DNA from: Geobacter sp.
Lineage (GTDB): Bacteria > Desulfobacterota > Desulfuromonadia > Geobacterales > Geobacteraceae
Direction of reading: 5' to 3'
NCBI GenBank assembly: GCA_003574885.1
Contig: PJFC01000004.1
Coordinates: 124,001 to 188,000, forward strand
Length of the DNA: 64,000 nt
The notes under the pieces are model-generated. The model ran no database searches. It had not been told where the DNA came from and saw only the letters and a program-made list of their open reading frames with translations. A program made the translations under genes and the position numbers. Shown here one piece after another: positions 2,606 through 44,561 of the stretch; positions within the stretch are counted from its first letter, which is position 1; every line of letters starts with the position of its first letter.

Positions 2606-2627
2606 CATGGCAAACCTGGCCGCTTGT

Positions 2628-3626: not shown

Positions 3627-3640
3627 ATCATCCTTTCTAG

Positions 3641-3761: not shown

Positions 3762-3811
3762 TGTTAATAGTGATCGTGGAGACTTCACGTGGTTGTCTGA
3801 AATTCGACGGC

Positions 3812-5719: not shown

Positions 5720-5832
5720 ATACGTTCTCCTCAATCCGCTGCACGTTCAGAATTCAATGTTCAGTAACTGAAAAAACCTGGTAACCTCAAACGTTGAACT
5801 TCGAACGTTGAACCTTGAACTGCTAGCGGATT

Positions 5833-6819: not shown

Positions 6820-6829
6820 ATATTTCGCG

Positions 6830-12476: not shown

Positions 12477-13157
12477 TTACTTTTTACTTTTCACTTTTTC
12501 AACCGGTTTTTCCCCCTCCGCGGCATCCACCGCTTTGACGAGATCTGCCGTCAGATCCTTGGCGTCCACGTCTGCACCCATGTAGAGTAGCTCCTTCTTC
12601 ACCACCACGGCGGCATAGCCGTTGGCCTTGCCGTACTCTGCGGCTGCTTTCTCTATGGCCTTGAAGAGCTTGTCGGAGAGCTCCTCCTCCCGGGTCCTCA
12701 TATCTTTTTCCGCGTTCTGCACGTATTTCTGGAAATCTCCCACTTTCTTCTGGAATTCCTTCGCCTTGGCTTCACGCTGCGGGGGGGGCATTGTTGCGAT
12801 TTTCGCCTCGATGGTCGCTTTCAGCTTCTCCAGCTGCTTCTGCTTCGCCTCGATCTGCCCCTTGTATTTGTCGTTCTTCTTCTTCATCTCGGCGAAGGCT
12901 GCTTTCCCCTGGGCCGAGTCGCTGGCCGCCTTGACCATATCCACGTATCCGAGCCGGATGGTTTTGGCCGGCGTTGCCGGAGGTGTTACCGTAGTTACCG
13001 TCACATCAGCCGACGCTGCCGGTTTTGCGCTGATCGAGGGGGTGGCTTCCGGCGACGTTTTCTGTCCGTCGGCGGCAGCGGGTTCCGCTGCAAGGGCGTT
13101 GATGGCGAAGAGTCCTGCAAGGGCTGTAGCGACCACCAGGGTGATAAGTTTCTTCAT
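12477..13157 (-). CDS. Periplasmic OmpH/Skp-like chaperone
   Basis: Exported protein of about 226 residues. It has a signal peptide (MKKLITLVVATALAGLFA up to ALAAE), a Pro/Ala/Thr-rich linker (about 25-70), then the start LGYVDMVKAASDSAQGKAA typical of OmpH domains. A long Lys/Glu-rich coiled coil (95-180) follows. Skp-type trimers hold outer-membrane proteins during transport across the periplasm. The linker is unusual for Skp. The ATG at 13157 follows AGAGG. It is a single gene here, not next to bamA or lpxD as is common, so it may be a paralogue. Confidence 0.8.
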   Translation of the reverse strand: MKKLITLVVATALAGLFAINALAAEPAAADGQKTSPEATPSISAKPAASADVTVTTVTPPATPAKTIRLGYVDMVKAASDSAQGKAAFAEMKKKNDKYKGQIEAKQKQLEKLKATIEAKIATMPPPQREAKAKEFQKKVGDFQKYVQNAEKDMRTREEELSDKLFKAIEKAAAEYGKANGYAAVVVKKELLYMGADVDAKDLTADLVKAVDAAEGEKPVEKVKSKK

Positions 13158-13360
13158 GGAGTACCTCTTTCTGGGGCAGTTCGCTGAGGCCTGACTGCCG
13201 GGATTTGTCCGAACGGGAGGAGCATAAAACATTTCATGTCGGTTAGGCAACAAAGAATCCCCGTGTGGGATTTGAAACCGGTCAACCTTCCCCTTGCGAA
13301 AATCGGGAATAATGTGATACATGTGTTGCAATATTGCCACAGCAAAGGAGCGTCGGAGTT

Positions 13361-14554: not shown

Positions 14555-14564
14555 CGAACAATAG

Positions 14565-14691
14565 CCACAGAGACACTGAGGCACTGAGAAAAAGAGTTCA
14601 GCGCATTTTATTGCTGGAAGAATTTCCCCGTGCTCTTTTCGGTTAACGGTTTCTTGGGTAGATATCACTCCGTGTCTCCGCGCCTCTGTGG
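14565..14691. repeat. Imperfect inverted repeat with CCACAGAG ends
   Basis: The left end reads CCACAGAGACACTGAGGCA, and the right end reads the near-complement ending CGCCTCTGTGG. The two arms enclose about 80 bases with no gene. Elements with CCACAGAG-type ends are scattered through many environmental bacteria (recollection). It fills the gap before the NtrX-like gene. Confidence 0.55.
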
Positions 14692-31281: not shown

Positions 31282-31368
31282 GCCCGAATGGCGGAATTGG
31301 TAGACGCAAGGGACTTAAAATCCCTCGGTCGCAAGGCTGTGCCGGTTCGACCCCGGCTTCGGGCACCA
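31282..31368 (+). tRNA. tRNA-Leu (UAA)
   Basis: An 87-base gene with encoded CCA. The acceptor arms GCCCGAA and TTCGGGC pair, the anticodon stem-loop reads GGACTTAAAATCC with a central TAA anticodon, and a long variable arm follows, as in class II tRNAs. The T-arm has GGTTCGACCCC. The 3' end (CCCGGCTTCG onward) is the integration point of the island. Confidence 0.97.
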
Positions 31369-31429
31369 TGTAATAGTCCAATAAGATGCAAAGCGGTACG
31401 GAAAGCCCTGAGAAATCGGGGCTTTTTCT
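31352..31429 (+). repeat. Left attachment repeat (attL)
   Basis: Begins inside the tRNA T-arm at CCCGGCTTCG, covers the CCA end, and runs through a terminator hairpin GCCCTGAGAAATCGGGGC (31404-31421) followed by a T-run. An imperfect copy lies at 40081-40153. The likely crossover core is the shared CCCGGCTTCG. Confidence 0.75.
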
Positions 31430-31480
31430 TTGTTTGTGGTCTAGTAGTGTCCAGAATAGTCCCTTGACATCCGTTGATTA

Positions 31481-31530
31481 TGGAGGTATATGGAGGTATA
31501 AAATACCTCCAACCGAAAATGGATACCTCC
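31481..31530. repeat. Arm-type repeats left of the integrase gene
   Basis: TGGAGGTATA occurs twice in tandem (31481-31500). TACCTCC, the reverse orientation, follows at 31504-31510 and 31524-31530. Similar GGGGGTA copies lie at the right end. The spacing in tandem and inverted order beside int suggests integrase arm-binding sites; the repeats also overlap the int promoter region, so they may affect its expression. Confidence 0.6.
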
Positions 31531-31547
31531 AAAAAGGAGAAAGAGCC

Positions 31548-32786
31548 ATGCCCAAAAGGATTACGCCACTATCTGAGATTCAGGTAAGGAACGCTAAACC
31601 GAAGGCTCAAGATTACAAACTTATGGATGGTTTTGGTTTGTATCTATTGGTTACTCCTACCGGCGGTAAATTATGGCGTTTTGATTATCGTTGTCTTGAT
31701 AAGCGGAAGGTTGTTGCTTTCGGTGCTTACCCTGCTGTTTCCCTTGCTGATGCCAGACAACGCAGAGAGGATGCCCGAAAGCTATTATCCAATGGCGTAG
31801 ATCCGGCGGAAGTGAAGAAGGCTCAGAAGGCCGCGACGGTTGCAGATGCAGAAAACAGCTTCGAGGTCGTTACCCGTGAATGGCATGAGAAGTTCAAGGG
31901 TAAGTGGGTTGCAAGCCATGCACAGCACAAGCTTGAACGATTTGAAAAGAACGTGTTCCCCTGGATAGGCAAAATGCCGATTGCCGAAGTCAAGGCAACT
32001 GATGTGCTGGCAGTATTACGGAGGATAGAATCGAGGAACCTTCTGGACACGGCACACAGGGTAAAGACGGATTGTGGACAGGTCTTGCGCTACGCCGTGG
32101 CAACCGGTAGGGCGGAACGTGATTGTACCGCAGACCTTAAAGATGCACTTCCACCGGCCAAGAGTGGGCACTTCTCTGCACCCACAGACCCGAAAGCGGT
32201 TGCACAAATGCTGAAAGCAATAGACGGCTTTACCGGTTCTTTCGTGGTTCAGTGTGCCATGAAGCTTGCCCCAATGCTCTTCGTTCGCCCAGGGGAACTC
32301 AGAGCGGCTGAGTGGTCAGAGATTGACCTTGAAGCGGCTGAATGGAACATTCCCGGCCATAAGATGAAGATGAAGGAGCCGCACCTTGTCCCCCTCAGCA
32401 CTCAGGCTGTGTCAATCCTTCGGGAACTGCGACCGCTAACCGGCCATAGCAAGTACGTGTTCCCCTGCAACCGTTCTCCGTTGCGCTGCATGTCGGAAAA
32501 TGCCGTCAATGGGGGACTTCGACGGTTAGGGTTTGAGAAATCTGAGATAACCGGCCATGGATTTAGGGCTACAGCACGTACCATGATTCATGAGGTCTTG
32601 GGATTCTCCCCCGATGCAATAGAGGCACAATTAAGCCATGCCGTACCTGATCGGTTAGGCAAGGCTTATAACCGGACACAACACCTTGCTGAACGGCGGA
32701 AGTTGATGCAGACATGGAGTGATTATCTGGACGGACTCAAGAGTGGGGCGAAGGTTATACCGTTGAAGAGGACGGGAGGGCAGTAG
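31548..32786 (+). CDS. int: P4-type tyrosine integrase
   Basis: Site-specific recombinase of about 412 residues. The N-terminal domain (about 1-90) has the MDGFGLYLLVTPTGGKLWRFDY pattern of the arm-binding DUF4102 fold. A SAM-like core-binding domain and the catalytic domain follow. Catalytic residues seen: Arg in RPGELRAAEW, HGFRATART (His-x-x-Arg), His in LSHAV, and Tyr in KAYNRTQ. The ATG at 31548 follows AAGGAG. It reads away from the tRNA, as is usual for tRNA-targeting integrases. Its C-terminal YLDGLKSGAK is copied in the fragment at 40243. Confidence 0.95.
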   Translation: MPKRITPLSEIQVRNAKPKAQDYKLMDGFGLYLLVTPTGGKLWRFDYRCLDKRKVVAFGAYPAVSLADARQRREDARKLLSNGVDPAEVKKAQKAATVADAENSFEVVTREWHEKFKGKWVASHAQHKLERFEKNVFPWIGKMPIAEVKATDVLAVLRRIESRNLLDTAHRVKTDCGQVLRYAVATGRAERDCTADLKDALPPAKSGHFSAPTDPKAVAQMLKAIDGFTGSFVVQCAMKLAPMLFVRPGELRAAEWSEIDLEAAEWNIPGHKMKMKEPHLVPLSTQAVSILRELRPLTGHSKYVFPCNRSPLRCMSENAVNGGLRRLGFEKSEITGHGFRATARTMIHEVLGFSPDAIEAQLSHAVPDRLGKAYNRTQHLAERRKLMQTWSDYLDGLKSGAKVIPLKRTGGQ

Positions 32787-32832
32787 TCATCCATTCACAG
32801 ACCGGGAACGGTCACAACCAAAGGAGGGTAAC

Positions 32833-33030
32833 ATGAAAGAAATCATGGATTGGACAGACAAACTGAAGGAAGCAAAAGCAAGGCTTTCACTGGTTCAGCG
32901 TTCAGCCTACAGTGAACTTGATTTCGACTCAGATGATATTGCAGGATTAGCGCTCACTATAGGGGACGCTAACGACCTTATCCAAAAGGTAATAGACCAC
33001 ATGGATGCAACTCGTACCAAGGCTGCATAG
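32833..33030 (+). CDS. Small hypothetical island protein
   Basis: 65 residues, acidic, predicted mostly helical, with no signal peptide or cysteine motif. It has a strong AAAGGAGG site. No family is recognised. A small gene just after int could be a regulator or excision factor, but nothing in the sequence proves it. Confidence 0.6.
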   Translation: MKEIMDWTDKLKEAKARLSLVQRSAYSELDFDSDDIAGLALTIGDANDLIQKVIDHMDATRTKAA

Positions 33031-33127
33031 TCCACCATTTCGCGGGGATAGGGGGCACCCGATAAGCCGGTTATCCTGGCCGGTTTCCCCGCGATCACAT
33101 ACCAGGAGCGCTACAGGAGGCGCTAAG

Positions 33128-33793
33128 ATGACAAAAAGACTTTCTGACTTTGCCCTTTCCCAAAAAGAAGTCTTGAAACGTTCACGGGAATCCCAAGCAG
33201 GTTTTCAGTGTGATCTGCTATATGCACAATGGCTCCTTAGGGCAATAAGGCGAGAAGGCAACACGCAGGATTGTCGGGAAATGGAAGCTAGATTGGATAA
33301 AATACTTACCCATCTTGAGTCAATGGAGGATGCACCGGTAAAGATCGGGCCAATAGATAACCCGGAAGCAGTCACAGTGACAGTGAATTTATACCAATCT
33401 AAAGTTGGTTTAAAACGCCAATTAGATGATGCAACAAGCTATTTAATGCTTCAGCGCACGTTTTTAAAAATTGACCATCCCGACAGGTTCCCAAAAGAAC
33501 CAAAGCTAGGTCAAGGAACTGATATTACAAAGAAACTGACCGCCTTGCAGTCAATTCTTGATTGGTACGATAAGAACAACGGAAAACACGTTTACCAGGC
33601 GACAATGGAGAAATATGGCGAAGAATCTGTACAGGACGATAATAAATACAATAGCAAAAAACAGGCATACTATGAGCGCTTACGACAGGCGGAAACGTGC
33701 TTGCTAGCAGCTAAAAGTGGTGTATTCCCCCCTCCCAATCTAACCGGTGCGAGAAAGAAAAGCCCAAAAAGTAGGGGCACTTCCAAAAAGTGA
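33128..33793 (+). CDS. Unknown island protein, 221 residues
   Basis: Soluble protein with an AGGAGG site 6 bases ahead of the ATG at 33128. The N-terminal 120 residues look helical, with the run RRSRESQ-like charged residues and LEARLDKILTHLES. A Lys-rich C-terminal tail (about 205-221) suggests nucleic-acid contact. No family or catalytic motif is recognised. Base composition is the most AT-rich of the island. It sits between integrase and the AlpA-type regulator, a common place for accessory or defence genes in satellites, which is only inference. Confidence 0.65.
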   Translation: MTKRLSDFALSQKEVLKRSRESQAGFQCDLLYAQWLLRAIRREGNTQDCREMEARLDKILTHLESMEDAPVKIGPIDNPEAVTVTVNLYQSKVGLKRQLDDATSYLMLQRTFLKIDHPDRFPKEPKLGQGTDITKKLTALQSILDWYDKNNGKHVYQATMEKYGEESVQDDNKYNSKKQAYYERLRQAETCLLAAKSGVFPPPNLTGARKKSPKSRGTSKK

Positions 33794-33873
33794 ACATACC
33801 GTAACAGATTGATATCATAGCTTATTTGTGACAGGTTACTTCCATGGACACTACTACACGGAGGTAATCAACT

Positions 33874-34080
33874 ATGGACGCAAAGAGTAGAAACACCCTT
33901 CCCGAAACCGGCTTTGTCCGGTTGTCTCAAATCATCCCCTCCATAATCCCTATTTCAAGAAGTCATTGGTGGGCTGGCGTCAAGGCTGGACGCTATCCTT
34001 CCCCCGTCAAGCTATCCGCACGTTGTACGGCATGGCGCGTTGAGGATATTCGCGCCCTAATCGAACGGCTTGCAGCCTAA
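33874..34080 (+). CDS. AlpA-type DNA-binding regulator
   Basis: 68-residue protein with the AlpA/MerR-like winged helix: FVRLSQII, then SRSHWWAGVKAGRYPSPVKLS, and AWRVEDIRALIERLA. AlpA proteins activate integrase or excision in P4-like elements and are the standard regulators of Gram-negative PICIs. A GGAGG site precedes the ATG. It starts what looks like a co-directed group of small genes leading into the primase. Confidence 0.85.
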   Translation: MDAKSRNTLPETGFVRLSQIIPSIIPISRSHWWAGVKAGRYPSPVKLSARCTAWRVEDIRALIERLAA

Positions 34081-34090
34081 GGGGGATATC

Positions 34091-34276
34091 ATGACCAGAA
34101 AACACGAAACCCACCGGGGGACGGTGGGCAACGTGGGAGGGAAAGCAGAAGCACTAACTATCTGCAACCATCCTACCGAAAAAACAGCCACAAGTCAATT
34201 AGTTGGAGCATTTGACCGGGATACCAAAGGCGCGGTTATCCTCCTTCACCAGGAGGTGCTTGATGCCAAAGCCTAA
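34091..34276 (+). CDS. Small hypothetical island protein
   Basis: 61 residues, with a GGGGGA site ahead of the ATG at 34091. The composition is polar and Gly/Thr rich at the N-terminus. It overlaps the next small gene by 14 bases, which fits a compact polycistronic group. No family recognised. Confidence 0.5.
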   Translation: MTRKHETHRGTVGNVGGKAEALTICNHPTEKTATSQLVGAFDRDTKGAVILLHQEVLDAKA

Positions 34277-34412
34277 ACCACTGAATCCCTTGGCGTCGAT
34301 TGCTCTTCGCCGTTACCGCGACGACTTGACCCGCCTTCCATTCTCTCCCACAACCTCTGAGGTCGTAGACTGCATCAACCGTGTACTGGACTATGCGGAG
34401 GTGCAAGCATGA
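34263..34412 (+). CDS. Small hypothetical island protein
   Basis: 49 residues starting at an ATG with GGAGGTG upstream. Pro-rich start, then a helical segment with DDLTRLPFSP and VDCINRVLDYAE. It overlaps the primase start by four bases (ATGA), so it is translationally coupled to that gene. No family recognised. Confidence 0.55.
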   Translation: MPKPKPLNPLASIALRRYRDDLTRLPFSPTTSEVVDCINRVLDYAEVQA

Positions 34413-36742
34413 ATACCGAGCGCTTCCGCGAAGCAATCCTAAACTCTCTTGGTTATGCACCGCCTTCCGAGATCCCCCCGGGCAAGATTGAACGTTTTCC
34501 TACCAGCGACAAGCGGGGAGATGATAACGGATGGTGCAGATTTTTCGATGATTGCGAAGGTGGTGTCTTTGGTTGTTGGCGCCAAGGTATATCCGAAATT
34601 TGGCACTTGCGAAAGCCAAGAACGCCGGAAGATAAAGCAGCATTTCAAGCCAAGGTGAAACAGGCACAAGAAGAGGCCGAACGGCAGCGGGAGCAAGAAC
34701 GGGCCGATTGCCGTGAAAAATCGGCAGAACTCTGGTCGAAGGGGCGGGACGTTGACGCGAAGCACCCTTATCTTGTGGCAAAGAACGTCAAACCCTACGG
34801 TGTGAAGCAGTTGAAAGACTCTTTGCTTATACCTGTCAGGGATGCAACCGGAGTCCTTCAAGGTCTGCAATTCATCGGGTTGGATGGATCCAAGAAATTC
34901 AAGACAGGAACAGCGGTTACAGGTTGCTATCACTCTATAGGCAAACCTAAGGATAAGCTCCTCGTTGCTGAAGGATATGCAACAGCGGCAACAGTCCATG
35001 AGATCACCGGCTATGCTGTAGCTGTTGCCTTTAATGCCGGAAATCTGAAACCAGTGGCCGAAGCATTACGGGCAAAGCTACCGGACATCACCTTAATAAT
35101 CTGCGCCGATGATGACCACTCCACCGAAGGGAACCCCGGATTGACAAAAGCCACCGAAGCAGCGCGAGCCGTCAACGGACTGTTGGCTGTTCCTTCATTT
35201 CCCGACAACAGGGGGGCGAAAGATACCGACTTCAACGACCTGGCGAAACTGGCAGGAGCGGAAGCTGTCAAGGTTTGCATTGAAGATGCGACACCTGTTG
35301 CTCCAATACTAACGCCACAAGATAACCCGTGGGTCTCTGCTATTGACCGTCTAGCAAAGCTATCCCCCCATGAATACGACAGGACCCGCAAAGAGGAAGC
35401 AAAGAAACTAGGGGTACGTCCAGCAACGCTTGACAATGCAGTAAAGGCAGCACAACGAGAAGCGGAGCAGATTGCTGAGACACCATTTCATGAAGTTGAA
35501 CCACATCCGGAACCTGTCGACGGTTCTGAATTGTTGACGGCACTAGTAGCAACAATCAAGCGCTTCATCGTATGTGAACAGCACACGGCCATTGCAGTGG
35601 CGCTTTGGATTGTCATGACGTGGTTCATGGACGTGGTAAAGGTTGCACCCAGGGCGATAATTACCGCGCCAGAGAAACGGTGCGGAAAGACATTGCTCCT
35701 TACCTTAATCGGCAAGCTGGCACCGAGGGCGCTAACCTCGTCAAGCATTACACCATCGGCGCTGTTCCGTGCAATAGACCTTTGGAACCCTACCCTACTA
35801 ATCGATGAAACTGATGCTTGCCTAAAGGAGAATGAAGAGCTACGCGGATTGATCAATAGCGGACACACAAGGGAAAGCGCTTATACCGTTCGTTGTGTCG
35901 GGGATGATCACACCCCTACAAAATTCAGTACATGGTGTGCAATGGGGCTTTCCGGTATCGGCAATGTTGCTGACACCATAATGGATAGAAGCATCATTCT
36001 TGAACTACGCCGGAAGCTTCCCCATGAAAAGGTTGAGCGGATCCGTCATGCAGAAGATGCTTTGTTTCAAGAACTATCCGCAAAGCTTGCCCGTTTCGCC
36101 GAAGATAACGCCGAAGCAGTACACGATGCCCGGCCTGTTCTACCGGAAAAGCTAAATGATCGAGCACAAGACAACTGGGAACCGTTACTTGCTATCGCCA
36201 TGGTTGCAGGAGGGGAATGGTTCAAAAGCGGCACGGCGGCGGCTCTCAAACTATCAGGGAGTGACGGCGAAAACCGAACGATAGGGACGGAACTGCTTTC
36301 TGACATACAGGAGATATTCACGGAACAGAAGCTTGACCGTATCAGTACGGCAGACCTTATCAAGGCACTTTGCGCCGATGATGAAAAAACCTGGGCTACT
36401 TATAACAGGGGATTCCCAATTAAGCCGCGACAACTAGCCAGCAAACTCAAGGGGTACGGTATTCACAGCAAGTCTATACGAATGAGTACCTACGAAACGC
36501 CGAAAGGTTATGAGCGGAGTCAGTTTGAAGATGCTTTTTTTCGTTATGTCTCTATCCCCCCCGATTTTATCCGCCACACGCCACAAATGGCTATCAGTGC
36601 GGGTTTACCTGTTGCGGAAAGCATTTTTCAAGGGGATGAAAAAACAGAAACGCAACGGCCTAAAGCCGCTACCAGTGCGGATTGTGGCGTTGTTGCGGAT
36701 AGAAACCCCCTACAGGTCGAAGTACCAAATTTTGACGTTTAA
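34409..36742 (+). CDS. Toprim primase fused to DUF3631-type helicase
   Basis: Replication protein of 777 residues. The N-terminal region (1-70) has WCRFFDDCEGGVFGCW, like the zinc-less primase entry domain of P4-type proteins. A Toprim domain (about 130-260) has LLVAEGYATA with Glu at 188 and IICADDD with Asp at 234-236. A charged linker follows. The helicase-like part has APEKRCGKT (about 420-428) and LLIDETD (about 464-470) as Walker A and B, with the cysteine-rich loop common in DUF3631. Satellites use such proteins for self-replication from their own origin. It is the largest gene of the island. Confidence 0.85.
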   Translation: MNTERFREAILNSLGYAPPSEIPPGKIERFPTSDKRGDDNGWCRFFDDCEGGVFGCWRQGISEIWHLRKPRTPEDKAAFQAKVKQAQEEAERQREQERADCREKSAELWSKGRDVDAKHPYLVAKNVKPYGVKQLKDSLLIPVRDATGVLQGLQFIGLDGSKKFKTGTAVTGCYHSIGKPKDKLLVAEGYATAATVHEITGYAVAVAFNAGNLKPVAEALRAKLPDITLIICADDDHSTEGNPGLTKATEAARAVNGLLAVPSFPDNRGAKDTDFNDLAKLAGAEAVKVCIEDATPVAPILTPQDNPWVSAIDRLAKLSPHEYDRTRKEEAKKLGVRPATLDNAVKAAQREAEQIAETPFHEVEPHPEPVDGSELLTALVATIKRFIVCEQHTAIAVALWIVMTWFMDVVKVAPRAIITAPEKRCGKTLLLTLIGKLAPRALTSSSITPSALFRAIDLWNPTLLIDETDACLKENEELRGLINSGHTRESAYTVRCVGDDHTPTKFSTWCAMGLSGIGNVADTIMDRSIILELRRKLPHEKVERIRHAEDALFQELSAKLARFAEDNAEAVHDARPVLPEKLNDRAQDNWEPLLAIAMVAGGEWFKSGTAAALKLSGSDGENRTIGTELLSDIQEIFTEQKLDRISTADLIKALCADDEKTWATYNRGFPIKPRQLASKLKGYGIHSKSIRMSTYETPKGYERSQFEDAFFRYVSIPPDFIRHTPQMAISAGLPVAESIFQGDEKTETQRPKAATSADCGVVADRNPLQVEVPNFDV

Positions 36743-36754
36743 AAGGTGATAGTC

Positions 36755-37015
36755 ATGAAATGCGAAGTCATAAAACCATTCATGCGCCGGGGGAAGTTTC
36801 AGGCTGTCGGTAGCATCATCGACGTACCGGAAGATTCAATTGGGAAGCTTGCCGGATATGTGCAGATGGATGATAGCCCCTTTACTGATGACCCGGAACC
36901 AACCGCGCCACCGTTCAAGGATGAGGATTGCCCTACATGGTGCGCCACTCGCGGCTGTCACTGTTCATCACGGCTAGGGTTATCGCCCTGTCTAAATTGT
37001 GGAGGTGCTAAGTGA
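36755..37015 (+). CDS. Cysteine-rich small island protein
   Basis: 86 residues with AAAGGTGAT ahead of the ATG at 36755. The first half is a small beta-rich domain (VIKPFMRRGKFQAVGSIIDVP), and the C-terminal third is cysteine-rich: CPTWCATRGCHCSS and CLNCGG. The six cysteines look able to bind zinc. No family is recognised. Its end overlaps the next start (GTGA). Confidence 0.55.
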   Translation: MKCEVIKPFMRRGKFQAVGSIIDVPEDSIGKLAGYVQMDDSPFTDDPEPTAPPFKDEDCPTWCATRGCHCSSRLGLSPCLNCGGAK

Positions 37016-37347
37016 GCAAATACGACCCGGCGAAGTTTGAAATGTTGATGTCCAGGTATTACGCCTTGCATGACCATGAAAGCGACTATGCACGCGACCT
37101 GTTAGCCAAGGCATTGACCTGTGCACCGCCTGACATTGCAGCGGCCATGCACAATAAGATGATCGAACTTGATTTACTCCCGCCGGTTCTCTTTGTTGAC
37201 GATGCCGGGAACCCCATGTTTACCATTCAGCAAGTAGCAGACAAGCTAGGCGTCCCGATTAAAGAGGTAGAGCAGAGAATGAAGGAAATGGTGAAGGAAG
37301 AGCCGGAACAATTCGCCCCCGTTGGTAATATCCACCGGCTGCATTGA
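37012..37347 (+). CDS. Hypothetical island protein
   Basis: 111 residues, starting at a GTG that overlaps the upstream stop codon. Helical and acidic; a segment FTIQQVADKLGVPIKEVEQRMKEM (about 70-92) looks like a helix-turn-helix. It may be a DNA-binding protein. No family recognised. Confidence 0.55.
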   Translation: MSKYDPAKFEMLMSRYYALHDHESDYARDLLAKALTCAPPDIAAAMHNKMIELDLLPPVLFVDDAGNPMFTIQQVADKLGVPIKEVEQRMKEMVKEEPEQFAPVGNIHRLH

Positions 37348-37432
37348 AACAGGACAACAGAACGTATGCACTCCCAATGAACGAGGGGAAAACCACTAGC
37401 TACCTACCACCTTATTTTAAGGAGAAAACGCC

Positions 37433-37606
37433 ATGAGCAAACATCTAACGCCGATTAAAGCTATACGGGCAAAATGTCTTGATTGCTGTTGTGGGCAGGT
37501 GAAGGAGATCAGAGAGTGCACTCTTTGCAAATGCACCCTTCACCCCTACCGGATGGGAAGGAGACCAGGGACAGCAACTGACACGGAAGAGATTGACGAG
37601 GTATAA
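37433..37606 (+). CDS. Small CxxCC zinc-binding-type protein
   Basis: 57 residues, short enough to be missed by gene callers. It has an AAGGAG site and ATG at 37433 and stops at 37604. KCLDCCCGQVKEIRECTLCKC carries seven cysteines ahead of HPYRMGRRP. Similar cysteine layouts (CLDCC, then CxxxxC, then YR-G) occur in small phage and island proteins, by recollection. Zinc binding is inferred. No function is known. Confidence 0.6.
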   Translation: MSKHLTPIKAIRAKCLDCCCGQVKEIRECTLCKCTLHPYRMGRRPGTATDTEEIDEV

Positions 37607-37639
37607 AAACCATAGCTCAATCGGAAAGGAGGCAAGGAT

Positions 37640-38098
37640 ATGGCTAGAGTGTTCGATGAAAACGGTAACCCTGTCAGGAGGATACCAGACTATCTTGCAA
37701 AGGAATATGCAGCGAAGGGGTACAGAGTGCTTCCAGACGAAGAGGTAAACCCCAAATCCTCATTTTATGTCGATATTCAGACACCCGCCGATGAAAAACG
37801 GGCGGCAGAGGTCAAGGCTATTCGCGATCATCTGTTTAGAGGCACCTTCCCAACCTTGCCAGAAGTTGAGATTCCATCCCCACTTGACGAACGTAAACAT
37901 TCAATACCTCGTCAATGGTCTGGCTGGGGTGCTCAATCTGAGCAGATACCCGCAGCAAATGACGGGGAGAAGGAGACCGCAATACAGGCGACGGACGCAA
38001 CCGACACAGAGCCGACCGGCGACAATGAAGAAAAATCGGATACGGATAGCATCTGGAGCCAGCTTTACGCTAAACATCGGTCAGGATGGAACATTTAG
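37640..38098 (+). CDS. Hypothetical island protein
   Basis: 152 residues with a clear AAAGGAGG site. The N-terminus (ARVFDENGNPVRRIPDYLAK) looks like a small capsid- or packaging-associated start, but this is weak. The C-terminal half is acidic, Thr/Asp/Glu rich and probably disordered. No family recognised. Confidence 0.5.
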   Translation: MARVFDENGNPVRRIPDYLAKEYAAKGYRVLPDEEVNPKSSFYVDIQTPADEKRAAEVKAIRDHLFRGTFPTLPEVEIPSPLDERKHSIPRQWSGWGAQSEQIPAANDGEKETAIQATDATDTEPTGDNEEKSDTDSIWSQLYAKHRSGWNI

Positions 38099-38135
38099 CC
38101 CTTTTTATACGAGGTGAATTGAGGGGGAAAATACA

Positions 38136-38576
38136 GTGAAAAAGACACCAGCAAAACAGCGTCATTTGGACGATTCCGAGCGCAACGAAATAGCCTACAA
38201 ATATGCAGCAGGTATAACACCCACGCGCATCGCCTTGGAGATCGGCAGGGATAAAGGTACGGTAATAAATGCAGTCCGTAATGATGAACAGTTAAAGACC
38301 TTGATTGACGGCTACCGGGAAGAACTAGGGGAGATGTTTGAACAGACCGCCAGACGTGCCTTGGGTGCCTTGACCGATGCAAAGCTAGACGGTGCTTCCG
38401 CACGAGACCTGATCATCGTTGCTGGCACCTCATACGACAAAATGAGACTACACCGCGGCCAGAGCACAGAGAATATTGCTGTAATCATGGCTAGCGCCGT
38501 GGTAGAGGCAACCAAGCAAAGGGGAGATAAAGAATTAACCTGCCAAAGGAGTGAACAGAATGACACGGAAAATTGA
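38136..38576 (+). CDS. Helix-turn-helix protein of packaging type
   Basis: 146 residues starting at a GTG after GAGGGGGA. Residues about 10-45 form a helix-turn-helix (SERNEIAYKYAAGITPTRIALEIGRDKGTVINAVR). A helical part follows, then ARDLIIVAGTSYDKMRLHRG. That last pattern is common in small proteins next to terminase genes in Proteobacterial prophages (recollection). It overlaps the TerS-like gene by 17 bases. It could be a second subunit of a packaging complex or a regulator. Confidence 0.6.
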   Translation: MKKTPAKQRHLDDSERNEIAYKYAAGITPTRIALEIGRDKGTVINAVRNDEQLKTLIDGYREELGEMFEQTARRALGALTDAKLDGASARDLIIVAGTSYDKMRLHRGQSTENIAVIMASAVVEATKQRGDKELTCQRSEQNDTEN

Positions 38577-39072
38577 CGACCAGAAGCTTCTTAAACTCCA
38601 CGCCGAGGGAGTAGAAGGCAAAGCCATTGCTGAGCGCTTTGGAGTATCCCCTGCGGCTATATCCAAGAGATTGAAGCGTCTAACCCGCCCTCCTATATTC
38701 GATGCTCTCACGGCGAAGGAAGAGCGCTTTGTGATGGAAATTGCAGGAGGGAAGAACCAGACACAAGCGGCTATGTCGGCTTTTGACGTGGGGAGCCTGG
38801 ACAGTGCCAAGACCATTGGAAGCAGACTGATGAAGGATACCGATATACAGGAAGCAATCACGGCAGTAATGGAAGCGGAAGGGTTAACCCGGCGTTACCT
38901 TGTCGGCAAGTTGAAGGGCCACGTTGATAATGCTGTTGACCCCTCCGTATCTCTCCGCGCTGTAGATTTGGGGCTAAAGCTGCATGACGCCTACCCCGCC
39001 ACCAAGAACATGAATCTAAACATCAACGTTGATTGTGACCCGGTTGATCTGTCGCAGTTTCGGCAACGGTAG
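38560..39072 (+). CDS. TerS-like small terminase subunit
   Basis: 170 residues. The N-terminus holds a helix-turn-helix (about 5-40, AERFGVSPAAISKRLKRL). Residues about 45-100 read LTAKEERFVMEIAGGKNQTQAAMSAFDV and then IGSRLMKDTDIQEAI, the recognisable core of the Terminase_2 small-subunit family. TerS picks the DNA for packaging. No large subunit is in the island, as in satellites that hijack a helper phage's packaging motor. AAAGGAG precedes the ATG at 38560. Confidence 0.7.
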   Translation: MTRKIDDQKLLKLHAEGVEGKAIAERFGVSPAAISKRLKRLTRPPIFDALTAKEERFVMEIAGGKNQTQAAMSAFDVGSLDSAKTIGSRLMKDTDIQEAITAVMEAEGLTRRYLVGKLKGHVDNAVDPSVSLRAVDLGLKLHDAYPATKNMNLNINVDCDPVDLSQFRQR

Positions 39073-39080
39073 GGAGAGGG

Positions 39081-39677
39081 TCATAATTCGTTAAGGTCTT
39101 TCTGCATATATTCATCCACCAAGTTAGCGCACTCACGCCCTAAATCTTTGGAATAATCAATGGCTAAATCATCCTTGAATTTACCCATACGGAAAGAGCT
39201 ATCCTTTTCGGCTTCCTTATCGTCAAGTACCTTCCCCGTCTTGGCGTCAATCAATTTGCATTCGACTTCAACACGGGGTTTACCGAACCCCCCGACTCCC
39301 ACAAGATACGTCATTACAAACCGTACCCCTTGATTGCCGGATTTAATTTCAGTGAAGGTGGTTTCCAGAATTAACCCATCCTGCGAATTATCGACCTCTT
39401 TGGGGTATACCCGGATATTCTTAATTGCAGTTTCTTCTTTAACCCGCTCCTGTACGCTATCTGCAAAAGCCTTAAACATTCCAGCCGTTGTTTCGTCAAA
39501 TTCTTTTCGCTCTTCCTTATCCATATCTTTGTAAATATCCTCTTTAATCATTGGCGTTTTGATTGTCAGGACAGTACAGGTTGGATATCGGGGGGGCACC
39601 TTCACCGTTTCCGTTTCTATGTTCTTGGTGCATCCTTGGGCTAATACCACCAGAGCGACAGCAAACAAGAATCTCAT
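39081..39677 (-). CDS. Reversed lipoprotein cargo gene
   Basis: Predicted lipoprotein of 198 residues. MRFLFAVALVVLAQGC is a lipid-attachment signal with the Cys at residue 16. The mature part has the layout of DUF4410-like proteins (kept tentative), ending in SKDLGRECANLVDEYMQ. Its gene has GAGGGGGAT ahead of the ATG. It is the only gene of the island on the minus strand and stands nearest to the right end, the usual place for cargo in satellites. An envelope lipoprotein could alter phage adsorption, but there is no direct evidence. Confidence 0.65.
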   Translation of the reverse strand: MRFLFAVALVVLAQGCTKNIETETVKVPPRYPTCTVLTIKTPMIKEDIYKDMDKEERKEFDETTAGMFKAFADSVQERVKEETAIKNIRVYPKEVDNSQDGLILETTFTEIKSGNQGVRFVMTYLVGVGGFGKPRVEVECKLIDAKTGKVLDDKEAEKDSSFRMGKFKDDLAIDYSKDLGRECANLVDEYMQKDLNEL

Positions 39678-39930
39678 AACATCCCCCTCAATTTGTAAAT
39701 GATAGAAGCCTAATTCAAATATACATAACCGTCAACATAGTATAGATGCCACAAGGTGCCACGATTAACCGGCCCTTTTTATTTGGTGCACATCCTGAGG
39801 GGAGATACGAAGAATCCGACGTCTGTCCAATCCCACCCCCCGGTCAAAATGTAGCCACTCTATCCCCCACCCACCGGCCACCCCCCCCCGGAGAGAGAGG
39901 AGGAGGGGAGGCACCAAACTAAATAAAAAA

Positions 39931-39970
39931 AATAACCGGCTTGCCCTGTCGAAAAGGGAGCCGGTTTTTA
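39931..39970. terminator. Terminator near the island right end
   Basis: AACCGGCT plus CCCT pairs with AGGG plus AGCCGGTT, with A-rich sequence on the left and a T-run on the right. It can end transcripts of either direction and insulate the chromosome from the island. Confidence 0.75.
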
Positions 39971-39981
39971 TATGCTTTGAT

Positions 39982-40225
39982 GGGGGTAGTATTATCTTTT
40001 GGGGGTATTTATGGGGGTATATGATGAAAACCACACTGTAAATGTTGCGTAATATCGGTATGTTGTATAAAAAATGTGGTCCCGGCTTCGACCACGTACT
40101 AATCCAATAAGATACAAGCAGTACGGAATGCCCTGAGAAATCAGGGCTTTTTCTGTTTAGTTGTCCGTCTTAGTCTGTTCAGGAATACTGAAATCCAGTT
40201 GTTTTTGGGGGTAGTTTTGGGGGTA
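39982..40225. repeat. GGGGGTA arm-type repeats at the right end
   Basis: GGGGGTA at 39982-39988, 40001-40007, 40013-40019, 40207-40213 and 40219-40225, all in one direction. They match the GGAGGTA repeats next to int except at one base. Three lie left of the attachment repeat and two lie right of it, next to an integrase fragment, so the second pair may belong to another element. Confidence 0.6.
40081..40153 (+). repeat. Right attachment repeat (attR), diverged
   Basis: Matches 31352-31429 from CCCGGCTTCG, with a three-base deletion in the tRNA end (ACCA kept, GGC lost). Most of CCAATAAGAT, GTACGGAA and the hairpin GCCCTGAGAAATCAGGGC are kept. The copy is clearly diverged from the left one, which is unlike a fresh integration. 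Confidence 0.7.
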
Positions 40226-40242
40226 CTGACAGATTATATGGA

Positions 40243-40323
40243 CACTATGGATACCTGGACGGGCTGAAGAGCTGGGCAAAGGTGCTTCCGTTGAAGGAGC
40301 AGAGTGAAAGAAACCTTGGATAA
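40243..40323 (+). pseudogene. C-terminal remnant of a second integrase
   Basis: An in-frame stretch reads YLDGLKSWAKVLPLKE and ends at TAA (40321-40323), matching the end of the intact integrase (YLDGLKSGAKVIPLKR). The 5' part is gone; only the arm repeats remain ahead of it. It lies where a tandem element's integrase would sit after the attachment repeat. It is evidence of a past second element at the same tRNA locus. Confidence 0.75.
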
Positions 40324-40546
40324 TCAGTCCTGGCGTGATCCCTTCCACGAGTTCAAGGAGAATGAGGGAGGGAATGGGATCAGATTTGAGTTTCGCGGGA
40401 TACCCAGGAGAGATTGTAAATTCGTGCTTTAGTCGCAACTGCACAATTGACAGGCTGTTTAAGAAGTGTAAACTGATGCCAGTTGTAACTATTTGTATCC
40501 TCGATATATTCAGGGCCTGAGAGCCCATATCACAAAGGAGGGCAAT

Positions 40547-40873
40547 ATGACTAAAGCTGAACTGGTAGCCAAGATGGCAGAAGGTGCTGGAATCACGAAA
40601 GTACAAGCGGAAAAGGCTCTTGCAGTCTTTACTTGCACCGTCTCATGTACACTCCGTGAGAAAGACAAGGTAACACTGGTAGGTTTCGGTACGTTCAGCG
40701 CACACAAAAGACCTGCGCGCAATGGTCGCAATCCACAGACTGGCAAGCCTATGAAGATTGCTGCCAAGACCGTTGGAAAGTTCACCCCTGGCAAGGATCT
40801 CAAGGATCTCAGCACAGTGCCCTCCTGTAAGGCCAAGAAGAAGCCTGTGGCAAAACCTGCCAAGAAAAAATAG
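40547..40873 (+). CDS. HU-like protein with Lys-rich tail
   Basis: DNA-binding protein of 108 residues. The first 90 residues follow the HU/IHF fold, with VGFGTFSAHKRPARNGRNPQTGKPMKI and a C-terminal KFTPGKDLKD. After that comes a Lys/Pro/Ala tail (CKAKKKPVAKPAKKK), as in some histone-like variants. Two Cys residues (CTVSC) lie in the first helical part. AAAGGAGG precedes the ATG at 40547. It may belong to the decayed second element or be a chromosomal paralogue. A terminator follows. Confidence 0.85.
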   Translation: MTKAELVAKMAEGAGITKVQAEKALAVFTCTVSCTLREKDKVTLVGFGTFSAHKRPARNGRNPQTGKPMKIAAKTVGKFTPGKDLKDLSTVPSCKAKKKPVAKPAKKK

Positions 40874-40905
40874 TAAAATTGAAAGACATTTGAATATGTA
40901 CTTTT

Positions 40906-40930
40906 AGCCCCATTTGTTGGGGCTTTTTTT
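40906..40930 (+). terminator. Terminator of the HU-like gene
   Basis: AGCCCC pairs with GGGGCT around ATTTGTT, followed by seven T residues. Confidence 0.85.
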
Positions 40931-41038
40931 ATGCACCTTGCCTGTTGCGAGGAAATGATACCCATGCTTGCTAAAATGAAAATTCTGCCGCATAATCTCT
41001 CTCATTAGTTTGCTTGCTACGACTCAGGGAGGTTGTGA

Positions 41039-41248
41039 ATGAAAGTGCAATCGTTTTTCTACGGGATAATTCTTGTTATGGCCTTGTCAATGCTGACAGG
41101 CTGTTGTGCAGGGCCTTACTGCTGGTGGCCCTGGCCTTTTGACGATGGATATTATGAAGGCGGTTACCGGGGCGATGGGGGGCACCAGGACAATGGAGAG
41201 CACAGGGGCCATGGGGAGCACAGGGGGCATGGAGGTCATGACGATTAG
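41039..41248 (+). CDS. Small His/Gly-rich lipoprotein
   Basis: 69 residues. The start is a signal peptide ending in a lipobox (MLTGC, Cys at about 22). The mature part is short and aromatic (CWWPWPFDDGYYEGG), then His/Gly/Asp/Glu rich repeats (GEHRGHGEHRGHGGHDD). The His-rich tail could bind metal, as an inference. GGGAGG precedes the ATG. Function not known. Confidence 0.75.
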   Translation: MKVQSFFYGIILVMALSMLTGCCAGPYCWWPWPFDDGYYEGGYRGDGGHQDNGEHRGHGEHRGHGGHDD

Positions 41249-41317
41249 AGGAAGATCGGTATGCCTGTGGCGGTTCCTGCAATACCTGTCAAACCCGTCG
41301 AAGTAGTCATTACAACA

Positions 41318-41350
41318 AAACCGGCTCCCCGCGAGGGGGCCGGTTTTTTC
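41318..41350 (+). terminator. Terminator after the lipoprotein gene
   Basis: AAACCGGC and the GC-rich core around GCGA pair with GCCGGTTT, followed by further T residues. A-rich on the left, so it may act both ways. Confidence 0.85.
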
Positions 41351-41545
41351 GCATAAAAAAAGGCCCCACTGAAAACTGTGAAGCTCTGCAACGCGTGCCA
41401 CTGGTAATTGGCCTGTGAATGCGTGGCTTACAAGGAACTCACGTTAAATCGGCATTACTGGTGCGGGCTGAAAGGGGAATTACGATGACATCCAAAATCC
41501 TTTATCATCCCCCAGTGGGGAGGGTGAGGGATGGGGTGGATTGAT

Positions 41546-41572
41546 GTCGAGTAATCAGGTTCCGAGTTAGTA
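41546..41572 (+). repeat. 27-bp direct repeat, left copy
   Basis: Begins GTCGAGTAATCAGGTTCCGA. The copy at 44209-44235 agrees at 24 of 27 positions, all three differences being A/G or C/T. The two copies bracket the LpxR-like and MFS genes. Confidence 0.65.
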
Positions 41573-41750
41573 ACATTGCATCTGAAGTTATTCTGGATAG
41601 AATCGTAATTAACCTGTCAAGGACGAAGACATTACGTCGCGCACCTTGTGCTCCGGACACTACGGTCTCTTTGTGGCCATGCAGTGCGTTTTTTCTGGTG
41701 GTCCGGTGTTTCCTTGACAGATATTATGCTGGAACTGGAGGGGTGCTGTT

Positions 41751-42737
41751 ATGGCAAGGCTCGTATCGATGCTGATTGCGCTGATGTGTGTTTCGACTAC
41801 CACTTCGTTTGCGGCGGAGCAGCCACCTGCTCCGACCCGAAGCTCCTTTTCGCTCCGTTTCGAAAACGACGCGTTTGGAGGTACAGATGCAAATTACACG
41901 AACGGGCTATCGATGGCGCTGACCCATAAAGGGAACGGCCTTCTCGGCGGATTGTGGGATCTGGCGGGAAAGACCGAAGGGGAGCGGTTTTCCACATACG
42001 AACTTACCCAGCTTCATTTTACTCCCTCCCAGCTCGAACTGAGCAACCCGGACCCGACCGACCGCCCCTATGCGGGGCTGCTCTACCTGGGATTCACGAC
42101 CCATCTGCAGCGTGAGGACAGCCTGCACAGCCTGAAGCTTATGGCCGGAGTCGTTGGCCACGCTTCCTATGCAGAAGGAGTCCAGAAGTTTACCCACCGG
42201 ACTTTGCACTATAGAATGCCCGAAGGGTGGGATCATCAGCTCAAGAACGAGGCGCTCATCAATCTGCTCTATGAGTATCGCTACAAGTACCGGATCACCC
42301 CCGTGGATGCACCGGTCAGCGTCGAACTGATTCCCATGGGCGGGGCGTTTCTTGGTACCTACCTGATCCAGGCCGAGGCCGGAGTGCAATGCCGGGTCGG
42401 CTACCATCCTGATGATTTCGGCGCCACGGTACTGCGGGGGGCAGGCTATCTCCCTTTTCCGCAGGTTCAGGGAACGCACCATGCATGGGGATACTATGTC
42501 TATGTGGGGGGAGTCGCAAACCTGGTCGCCCGGAACCTCACTCTCGACGGCAACACGTTCACTCATAGCCGAAGCGTGGACAAACGCCTGTTCCTGCCTA
42601 TGGCCGAGTATGGCGCGTCTGTTTGGGCAAGCCGGTTCCAGGCTACTTTCTCCTATGTCATGTGGGGGAGGGAGTTTTATGGCCAGCCGAAACGGGAAGA
42701 TTACGGTTCGATCCTTTTTTCCTACTTCTTCAAGTGA
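41751..42737 (+). CDS. LpxR-like outer-membrane lipid A deacylase
   Basis: Outer-membrane beta-barrel of 328 residues with a signal peptide (about 1-22). The mature start, RFENDAFGGTDANYTNGLSMALTH, matches the LpxR pattern of the Asn-Asp pair and YTNG. DRPYAGLLYLG, GWDHQLKNE and the final barrel Phe (FFK) fit the family (PF09982 type). LpxR removes the 3'-acyloxyacyl group of lipid A in Salmonella, using an Asn, an Asp and a His in a calcium site. Lipid A modification would alter the surface that hopanoids also stiffen. GGAGGGG lies before the ATG. Confidence 0.82.
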   Translation: MARLVSMLIALMCVSTTTSFAAEQPPAPTRSSFSLRFENDAFGGTDANYTNGLSMALTHKGNGLLGGLWDLAGKTEGERFSTYELTQLHFTPSQLELSNPDPTDRPYAGLLYLGFTTHLQREDSLHSLKLMAGVVGHASYAEGVQKFTHRTLHYRMPEGWDHQLKNEALINLLYEYRYKYRITPVDAPVSVELIPMGGAFLGTYLIQAEAGVQCRVGYHPDDFGATVLRGAGYLPFPQVQGTHHAWGYYVYVGGVANLVARNLTLDGNTFTHSRSVDKRLFLPMAEYGASVWASRFQATFSYVMWGREFYGQPKREDYGSILFSYFFK

Positions 42738-42840
42738 TGCATAGTGCCATCAGTTGCCTGCCGACCGAAGTGCTGTTCCTTTGGGCAGAACCAGGTACCA
42801 CTGATCTCCACACAACATCCCTGAGAGCGCATCGGACATA

Positions 42841-44178
42841 ATGTCACCTATCGGAATGAATATATCAGGGATGAAGTCGCTTCTGCGTGCTTTGCGCTCC
42901 AGGAACTATCGGCTCTTCATGGCCGGGCAGAGTGTTTCCCTGGTCGGCACATGGATGCAGCAGGTCGCCATGAGCTGGCTGGTCTACCGTCTGACCGGTT
43001 CCGCCTTCCTGCTCGGCGTCGTCGGCTTTACCAGCCAGATCCCCACCCTGCTTTTTGCGCCTGTAGCCGGGGTGCTTGCCGACCGTTGGGACCGGCGGCG
43101 CCTGCTGATATTCACACAGGCCCTCGCCATGGTTCAGGCCGGTCTGCTGGCTGCCGTCGTACTCTCCGGGATCGTCCAGGTCTGGCACATCGTCCTGCTG
43201 AGCCTGCTTCTCGGCGTTGTCAATGCCTTTGACATTCCGATACGCCAGTCCTTTCTCGTCGAGATGGTCACTTACCGGGAAGATCTCGGAAATGCAATTG
43301 CCCTGAATTCATCCATGGTGAACGGTGCCCGTCTTATCGGCCCTACCATTGCCGGTCTTCTGGTCGCGTCGGTCGGAGAAGGTGTCTGCTTCATCCTGAA
43401 CAGCGTCAGCTACCTGGCGGTGCTGGTGGCTCTCGTTGCCATGCGCATCGAACCTCGCCCTCCTGATCCAACGAAACGGCGTCATGTTTTTCATGAACTT
43501 CGGGAAGGCTTTGCCTACGCCGTCGGGTTCGGGCCTATCAGGAGCATTCTGATGCTGGTCGCTCTGGTAAGTCTGACCGGAATGCCTTATACCGTACTGG
43601 TGCCGGTATTCGCCAAGGAAGTCCTCCATGGCGGCGTCCATACCTTTGGTTTCCTTATGACCGCAGGCGGGTGCGGCGCTTTTGCCGGTACCGTCTACCT
43701 CGCTTCCCGAAAGAGTGTCCTCGGTCTTGGCAGGCTCATCGCCCGTGCCGCGATCCTGTTTGCCGCAGGAATAGCCGCTTTTGCCCTGTCGAGCAACCTT
43801 TTCATCTCCATGGTGTCGCTGGCCGTAGCCGGTTTCGGAGCGATAACACTCATCGCTTCTTCCAATACGATTCTTCAGACTATTCTCGAGGAGGACAAGC
43901 GGGGCAGGGTTATGAGCTTCTTCACCGTAGCCTTCATCGGGATTGCCCCTTTCGGCAGCCTGGGCGCCGGAACTATGGCCGGCGTCATCGGCCCGCGCGA
44001 GACACTTCTTCTTGGTGCCGGCTGCTGTCTTATGGGAGCCGCCCTGTTCGCCCGGCATCTTCCCCAGGTCAGGGAGATGGTGCGTCCGATCTATATCAAA
44101 ATGGGGATAATCAAGGAAGTCGCCCACGGGATGGAAACAGCCGCGGAACAGCCACCTTTCCCCGGTGCGCAGGAGTGA
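42841..44178 (+). CDS. MFS exporter, EntS-like
   Basis: Inner-membrane transporter of about 445 residues with 10-12 helices. The start RNYRLFMAGQSVSLVGTWMQQVAMSWLVYRLTGSAFLLG and the loop GVLADRWDRRRLL fit the MFS_3/EntS group of drug and siderophore exporters. The Arg/Asp loop motif between helices 2 and 3 is present. The exact start (42841, 42856 or 42871) is uncertain. It follows the LpxR-like gene by 103 bases on the same strand. The substrate is unknown. Confidence 0.85.
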   Translation: MSPIGMNISGMKSLLRALRSRNYRLFMAGQSVSLVGTWMQQVAMSWLVYRLTGSAFLLGVVGFTSQIPTLLFAPVAGVLADRWDRRRLLIFTQALAMVQAGLLAAVVLSGIVQVWHIVLLSLLLGVVNAFDIPIRQSFLVEMVTYREDLGNAIALNSSMVNGARLIGPTIAGLLVASVGEGVCFILNSVSYLAVLVALVAMRIEPRPPDPTKRRHVFHELREGFAYAVGFGPIRSILMLVALVSLTGMPYTVLVPVFAKEVLHGGVHTFGFLMTAGGCGAFAGTVYLASRKSVLGLGRLIARAAILFAAGIAAFALSSNLFISMVSLAVAGFGAITLIASSNTILQTILEEDKRGRVMSFFTVAFIGIAPFGSLGAGTMAGVIGPRETLLLGAGCCLMGAALFARHLPQVREMVRPIYIKMGIIKEVAHGMETAAEQPPFPGAQE

Positions 44179-44561
44179 CACAGGGACAACCCGGTGAAAT
44201 ACGGACAGGTCGAGTAGTCAGGTTTCGAGTTGGTAGATATATTTCCAGGGGATAGTCGTTAAGTTTTTTGACTGGATATGTTGATGTAACTGGTTGTTGT
44301 GCTGCTTGGTGTATGGTTATATGGCGTTTTTCTTTGCACAATAGCGGAAGTTTTTGCATGGTTCACGGCGTTTTCCGCGAAACCGCCAGTTCTCAGTGAT
44401 AATTACCTGAAAAAATATTGCATATCGTTAACGGCTTGAGACAGGAGGAGTTTTTACAGTATATTCCGGTGCACAGCGTCCCGCGTTGCGGCTGATATAT
44501 CAAATAATGCGAATGTTGGTATGCAATTTGCTCGTCATGTTGTGATGGGAGGGCGAAAATA
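44179..44561. other. Interval upstream of the histidine kinase gene
   Basis: 383 bases with the right copy of the 27-base repeat and AT-rich DNA (44270-44460). No gene, terminator with a good T-run, or known riboswitch was recognised. The kinase promoter probably lies in its right half. Confidence 0.6.
44209..44235 (+). repeat. 27-bp direct repeat, right copy
   Basis: Begins GTCGAGTAGTCAGGTTTCGA. It lies 31 bases after the MFS stop codon; see the left copy at 41546. Confidence 0.65.

Follow-up and report, generated by a model that had tools for sequence, protein, structure and literature searches.

In a 64,000-nucleotide stretch of a Geobacter sp. genome (contig PJFC01000004.1 of assembly GCA_003574885.1, positions 124,001 to 188,000; hereafter the window), an element of about 8.7 kb lies beside a tRNA-Leu(TAA) gene. 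The element is probably a phage satellite resembling the phage-inducible chromosomal islands (PICIs), of the int-alpA-primase-terS type, whose own small terminase subunit (TerS) would redirect the packaging motor of a helper phage. Support at the sequence level comes from the insertion at tRNA-Leu, from the fact that no structural or conjugation gene was recognised, and from the phage small-terminase DNA-binding domain of TerS. A sequence-only reading of the window had proposed a PICI-like satellite, and our analysis supports it; the satellite function we infer from the sequence.

In the cycle proposed, infection by a helper phage would be followed by excision of the element by AlpA with the integrase, and the primase/helicase would replicate it. 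The element's TerS would bind a packaging site on the satellite and recruit the large terminase (TerL) of the helper, whereby helper capsids would take up the satellite genome; insertion at tRNA-Leu by the integrase would follow its transfer.

The gene series runs tRNA, hairpin, four TGGAGGTA sites, integrase, AlpA, primase/helicase, small genes, a helix-turn-helix (HTH) protein, TerS and lipoprotein (Table 1). The earlier reading had placed an integrase, an AlpA-type regulator, a primase/helicase and a TerS-like gene in one co-directed block at tRNA-Leu; the families of all four were matched, and nearly all genes are indeed co-directed, the final one, for a DUF4410 lipoprotein, being reversed. 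Pfam was searched with each of 14 element proteins separately, and PHROGs with 10 of these (for TerS, the best 25 of 27 PHROG families were considered). In agreement with the same reading, these scans gave no match to TerL, portal, capsid, tail, lysis or relaxase families. Capsid or TerL genes on an extended element had been named as counter-evidence; none was recognised from the tRNA to the native flank, the recognisable genes beyond 40090 being an integrase remnant, an HU gene, a small protein, LpxR and, by eye, a transporter of the major facilitator superfamily (MFS).

The TerS protein and its relatives

TerS matched PF03592 with 31.2 bits (cut-off 26.1) over profile positions 1-55 of 141, and phrog_51 with an E-value of 2.5e-14. 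It consists of an HTH (residues 2-46), a DNA-binding domain of the SF6 small-terminase type (53-110) and a family-specific C-terminus. In a structure model (4 sequences, mean predicted local distance difference test score 68.4, low confidence in the C-terminus), residues 53-110 matched the SF6 small terminase 4zc3 with Z 9.0 and a root mean square deviation of 1.4 over 56 residues. The next match was 2cmp, also from SF6 (Z 8.9), then came Z 7.2, and the comparison tool cautions on Z under 8. Foldseek ranked 4zc3 ninth (probability 0.99, E 0.94), and 13 of the best 50 rows in BFVD were named terminase small subunit. We conclude that TerS has a predicted small-terminase DNA-binding domain, as judged from PF03592, 4zc3 and 2cmp.

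In small terminases the C-terminal part serves oligomerisation and TerL binding; the C-terminus of the window TerS is conserved in an alignment of the four family members and lies outside the phrog_51 match. No match to it was found in 50,697 phage records, which hold no full-length TerS homologue either, the single matching record being matched in its HTH part. A pattern scan of the viral contigs of IMG/VR for the TerS family gave 2 matches, HTH only, and a similar scan of genome contigs gave 2 loci (L036 and L037). Since the latter missed the copy in genome G081, the genome and viral pattern scans are non-exhaustive. When the HTH protein whose gene overlaps the start of TerS was considered as a second TerS, 1 of its best 50 BFVD rows was a terminase small subunit (rank 45), the others being mostly uncharacterised, unnamed or HTH proteins, and nothing was confirmed with it in the viral contig scan. 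A 34% identical homologue of it sits 3′ of the primase in locus L053.

Among 97 genomes, TerS found matches in 5, full length in 4 (window included). The three other full-length homologues, 47-56% identical, are in Geobacterales genomes. They lie in a 5.9-kb element at tRNA-Ala with exact 52-bp repeats (G058, locus L036), a 7.65-kb element at tRNA-Leu(CAA) with exact 20-bp repeats (G011, L037) and a 9.8-kb element at tRNA-Pro with exact 46-bp repeats (G081, L038). The weak fifth match belongs to a 7.25-kb element at tRNA-Ser with a 61-bp repeat (G017, L039). Homologues found always within full prophages had been named as a further objection; the opposite was observed, the three homologues residing in tRNA-bounded elements of 5.9-9.8 kb that show no TerL, portal or capsid among the families listed. 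A first scan of the five elements (that of the window, these three and L039) took in all 107 open reading frames (ORFs) of 80 aa or longer; a second was run on 58 ORFs, a selection that omits the integrases, the primases and most overlapping reverse frames, and adds three short window genes. Phage_integrase was matched by 5 of the 107 ORFs, assigned by judgement one to each element, and Phage_AlpA by two, in L038 and L039. No TerL, portal, capsid or tail family appeared among the best 25 of 63 PHROGs, of 33 Pfam families and of 37 PHROGs. The integrases of L036, L038 and L039 are just 24-27% identical to that of the window, and no relative of the window primase was found in L036-L039. Because the integrases are distant and primase relatives were not found there, TerS appears as the common, exchanged part of these elements.

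A type II methyltransferase and a restriction enzyme were assigned by eye to L039. The small Cys-rich protein of L037 (Table 1) is itself related to one in L039 (43% over 79 aa). At one end of the L037 element, 13876-14574, a putative lipoprotein gene was seen by eye, as at 39081-39677 of the window; a role of these lipoproteins in superinfection exclusion is a guess.

The int-alpA-primase chassis and the putative helper

Homologues of the primase were found in 36 of the 97 genomes. Sixteen primase loci were fetched, 8 of which have both the integrase (at least 54% identity) and AlpA (at least 56%); of the 9 primase loci with an alpA match, 7 encode an AlpA of 60-65% identity. Where a tRNA is in view, these loci sit at tRNA-Leu(CAG), Glu, Phe or Ser, and those printed have the same left end of tRNA, hairpin and integrase, several with repeat words of their own. 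The sequence-only reading had suggested a search of related genomes for the int-alpA-primase-TerS order. In the loci compared, both the TerS family and the chassis do recur, but separately.

Thirty-five ORFs were selected from 8 primase loci; int and alpA at these identities are present in six of the loci, and two share the primase alone. They gave matches to KAP/QatA, RmrA, HsdM/type I methyltransferase, Fic/SoFic and CapP/CapH (for PADLOC, among the best 25 of 52 families); a small terminase was absent from the complete set of 17 Pfam families. Loci L040-L048 are Geobacterales islands in which a related primase is found together with anti-phage defence cargo, a membrane protein and a further gene, recombinase-like and of 296 aa; int and alpA are frequently the same as well. 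In L044, two neighbouring integrase-like frames (12787-14459) lie at a single tRNA-Ser. As close relatives of int, alpA and the primase lie in defence islands lacking TerS, the element is a mosaic, and we propose that HTH-TerS is a packaging module placed on an int-alpA-primase chassis common to Geobacterales defence islands. That the Geobacterales hold a whole guild of TerS satellites on interchangeable chassis, with a TerS C-terminus fitting the packaging motor of unsampled helpers, is a more tentative idea, which we regard as somewhat doubtful.

A test for a resident helper prophage with a matching TerL had also been suggested. It revealed none: the own genome (3.47 Mb in 23 contigs) gave no match to TerL (phrog_2, PF05876, PF03237) or portal (phrog_12), and its sole Terminase_2-type gene is the TerS of the element. 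A helper would therefore be external, or belong to a type that the models miss. Weak phrog_2 matches in the relatives (about 18-38 bits over short stretches) are probably helicases, by our judgement.

Over the 97 genomes, 22 genes of the Terminase_2/phrog_51 type were counted. A phrog_2 TerL adjoins 5 of them (G008, G065, G089, G093, G095), a TerL was judged by eye to lie beside 3 (G005, G048, G084), and 2 loci are broken or unresolved (G082, G081:3431529). Beside the remaining 12 no large terminase was recognised, in five cases by family libraries (the window and L036-L039) and in seven by eye, on the longer ORFs of the available stretch (L097, L098, L104, L105, L106, L109, L111). The latter seven are a mixed set, since some hold large phage-like proteins: L109 encodes a protein of 1195 aa with matches to DarB-like antirestriction, endolysin and head-protein families, and L097 a match to a tail-protein family. 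Locus L098, from the same genus (G001), shows at 902-8568 an integrase, an AlpA-like small protein, a DnaB-like helicase (by eye) and a small terminase (PF03592, E 5e-28), with a TerL not recognised; one further protein matches phrog_10969.

Known satellites and competing explanations

P4-like satellites have a P4-type integrase, AlpA, an alpha-type primase and Sid/Delta/Psu genes. The window element has an integrase and AlpA, and its primase is of the Toprim+DUF3631 kind; no family named Sid, Delta or Psu appeared in the general Pfam and PHROG scans of its proteins, which included no dedicated search. Capsid-forming PICIs encode their own capsid, portal and TerL, none of which appeared in the scans of the window element. 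A 9.1-kb viral contig (L121, IMGVR_UViG_3300038974_000344) carries an integrase and a primase half that is 64% identical to that of the window; in pairwise BLAST an HTH of the contig aligns with the TerS N-terminus at 38.6% identity over 44 aa. Genes for TerL, a protease, a major head protein and a portal protein, none of which was found in the window element, are present on it. Its 9 scanned ORFs include no tail gene, and it is either capsid-forming-PICI-like or a phage fragment.

Like the Gram-negative PICIs EcCICFT073 and PmCI172 (PMC6092414), the element combines int, alpA and a primase in one main direction, one cargo gene being reversed, with no structural, TerL or lysis gene in our scans; terS is present in some of those PICIs too, while EcCICFT073 relies on cos and not on TerS. 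It differs from them by its Geobacterales host, its Toprim+DUF3631 primase and the lack of a recognised iteron origin, and the main text of that paper mentions neither Geobacter, Deltaproteobacteria nor Desulfo. The same paper names, for Gram-negative PICIs, an att site never used by prophages. Genes exclusive to PICIs were not found, as phage records, phage-like contigs and islands all hold relatives of the primase, and for this reason the element is filed as PICI-like and not as a true PICI. With those Staphylococcus aureus pathogenicity islands (SaPIs) that have their own TerS, it shares a satellite-encoded TerS, linked in SaPIs to headful packaging (PMC6092414); SaPI hosts are, however, Gram-positive, and no phage counterpart was found for the C-terminus of the window TerS.

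AH14b of Pseudomonas sp. ANT_H14, which is packed in the capsids of another phage (PMC4936722), resembles the element by its P4-like integrase, AlpA, Toprim primase half (40.5% identical to that of the window) and lipoprotein gene. It differs in its length of 16.8 kb, in having primase and helicase as separate genes, and in that its authors recognised no terminase gene. The phage-inducible chromosomal minimalist islands (PICMIs; PMC10803314) share the minimal int-alpA-prim set with no capsid remodelling genes, but lie at fis in Vibrionaceae, with a DUF3987/DUF5906 primase in the search model; the word terminase is absent from the main text of that paper.

Several observations weigh against a satellite. 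Packaging, induction and transfer of the element are putative, the TerL and portal models tried showed no resident helper, and the TerS family was in none of the 16 primase loci (E 1e-3). The E-values of Foldseek for TerS all exceed 0.001, and its phrog_51 match covers 78-144 only, when 16 of 22 compared matches extend to 217-244; as it stops at 144, binding of TerL by TerS is only putative. The half of the primase outside Toprim has its best phage-record match (48.9%, residues 371-767) in a 56.9-kb Pseudomonas phage, and viral contigs bearing capsid genes also carry primase relatives, so that the primase is not satellite-only (gene-by-gene reading of the viral loci covered all except L056-L057 and L124-L133). 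In the other elements, a structural match of a single ORF could stand lower in the lists. Finally, the right att site is decayed, and candidate origin repeats in the window were short and weak, and no iterons were recognised like those that flank the origin 3′ of the primase in known PICIs.

Some of these points would suit a defence-type genomic island, moved by generalized transduction or by other means, in which a borrowed TerS would serve a regulatory or anti-phage role, for example by poisoning the packaging complex of a phage. The 8 of 16 primase loci sharing int and alpA, the defence matches without small terminase of the chassis loci, the unlikeness of the C-terminus to phage TerS, and the reported transduction of int/alpA islands by jumbo phages (PMC12595487, whose main text lacks the word terminase) all argue in this direction. 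We nevertheless find such an island unlikely: the TerS family also occurs with three other, distantly related integrases and in each case in a small element, a pattern consistent with selection for packaging, and a chassis of island origin is compatible with a satellite TerS.

That TerS is a phage gene, and that the wrecked second element next door (see below) implies deletions at this place, might also suggest a prophage stripped of its late genes. This we hold to be very improbable, given the coding density of 87%, the small elements with exact att repeats that house the TerS homologues, and the lack of a full-length TerS homologue in the phage records. Moreover, AlpA and an inward integrase are given as marks of satellites rather than prophages in PMC10111431, a table of which lists Pfam matches of AlpA in 259 of 273 "other satellite models" and in 1 of 169 prophage models. 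Insertion at a tRNA and a replication gene would equally suit an integrative mobilizable element moved by conjugation, and related Toprim stretches do lie under plasmid features annotated as MobF relaxases and toprim proteins; as no relaxase or mobilisation family was found in the 14 element proteins, nor among the 17 Pfam families of the 35 chassis ORFs, we give this explanation hardly any credit.

If it is a PICI-like satellite, the element adds a new lineage and a new host order to a type of element already known. Among the papers listed in a literature search, no title concerned Geobacter phage satellites, though one could be included in the survey of de Sousa et al. 2023 (NAR). The cited papers describe satellites of Enterobacterales, Pasteurellaceae, Vibrionaceae, Pseudomonas and Gram-positive cocci. 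Geobacterales are iron reducers of soil and sediment, and a coherent family there, if true, would extend satellites to another bacterial order. TerS together with the att sites offers a handle for finding unsampled helper phages, and the chassis common to defence islands allows a natural comparison of one integration and replication module in two lifestyles.

Layout of the element and of the composite insert

Table 1. Features of the element and of the adjoining insert, in window coordinates.
Feature	Position	Strand	Basis or remark
tRNA-Leu (anticodon TAA), integration target	31282..31368	+	ARAGORN; att core within its 3′ part
Left att core CCCGGCTTCG, 10 bp	31352-31361		within tRNA-Leu 3′ part
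Terminator-like hairpin directly past tRNA, left-end signature	31403..31429	+	by eye
Left arm, four TGGAGGTA arm-like sites	31481..31531		+128 to +171 from core centre
Tyrosine integrase with arm-binding domain	31548..32786	+	PF13356 (Arm-DNA-bind_3), PF22022 (Phage_int_M), PF00589 (Phage_integrase); phrog_1
Small ORF	32833..33030	+	no Pfam family
221-aa protein	33128..33793	+	no Pfam family; PHROGs only E 0.027
AlpA-type regulator/excisionase	33874..34080	+	PF05930
Primase/helicase, 777 aa, Toprim + DUF3631	34409..36742	+	PF13362, PF12307; phrog_2249 E 1.6e-70
Small protein	36746..37015	+	no Pfam or PHROG family
111-aa protein	37012..37347	+	weak matches only, E 0.007 or worse (Pfam, PHROGs)
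Small Cys-rich protein	37433..37606	+	relative beside TerS in L037, 47% over 38 aa
152-aa protein	37640..38098	+	no Pfam or PHROG family
HTH protein, overlaps TerS start by 26 bp	38136..38576	+	PF13936
TerS	38551..39072	+	PF03592, phrog_51, SF6 small-terminase structures
Putative lipoprotein, DUF4410, cargo	39081..39677	-	PF14366 E 3.9e-11; lipobox by eye
Right arm, three TGGGGGTA arm-like sites	39981..40019	+	-101 to -70 from core centre
Right att core CCCGGCTTCG	40081..40090	+	three tRNA-end bases missing directly after it
Left end of second same-family element	40091..40310	+	integrase deleted save C-terminus (YLDGLKSWAKVLPLK)
Remaining insert: HU paralogue, 69-aa protein, LpxR-type lipid A deacylase, MFS transporter	40311..44570		transporter by eye

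The coding fraction of the element was computed over 13 frames, and its GC content (0.494) is lower than that of the flanks (0.588 and 0.595). The integrase is presumably of the P4 type. AlpA matched PF05930 with 24.1 bits (cut-off 21, E 3.3e-5), and its PHROG with just E 0.0065. By eye, the N-terminus of the small protein encoded directly after the primase resembles the product of the gene 3′ of the primase in L043 and L048, and a hairpin comparable to that of the left end was seen behind the tRNA in all 8 printed relatives, 7 of which also show a T run.

The sequence-only reading had bounded the element at 31352 and 40153: the start is the first base of the core, whereas the end falls about 60 bp inside the second element. 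It had missed the degenerate right att repeat, the second remnant of the same family, and the reach of the insert to about 44570. Gram-negative PICIs have direct repeats bounding their attachment site. The repeats of the relatives (20-61 bp) are exact, while those of the window amount to a 10-bp core with decayed surroundings on the right. A third CCCGGCTTCG copy in the window, at 22989, is taken for chance. The motif TGGRGGTA occurs 15 times in the 64-kb window against 2.86 expected from shuffles, with 7 copies at the two ends of the element, 2 in the abutting remnant and 6 elsewhere. The offsets of the arm-like sites are near the motif spacing of helper-embedded PICIs, which PMC10111431 reports as 81 bp on the upstream and 132 bp on the downstream side.

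To the right of 40090 the sequence resembles a left end once more: a hairpin (40127-40154) and arm-like sites are followed by the final residues of an integrase. In two genomes of the same genus, G001 and G002, sequence matching window position 44572 stands about 480 and 580 bp, respectively, past the tRNA; both lack the two elements at this site, as well as the sequence of 40311..44570. The insert is therefore composite and up to about 13.2 kb long. A third genome of the genus, G003, has a different sequence 3′ of the tRNA, and is uninformative as its contig stops about 2 kb on. We infer that the second element entered first and that the satellite later used the same tRNA, the right att copy decaying once freed from serving the tRNA. 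The decayed right core and the wrecked neighbour suggest an old insertion, which may now excise poorly.

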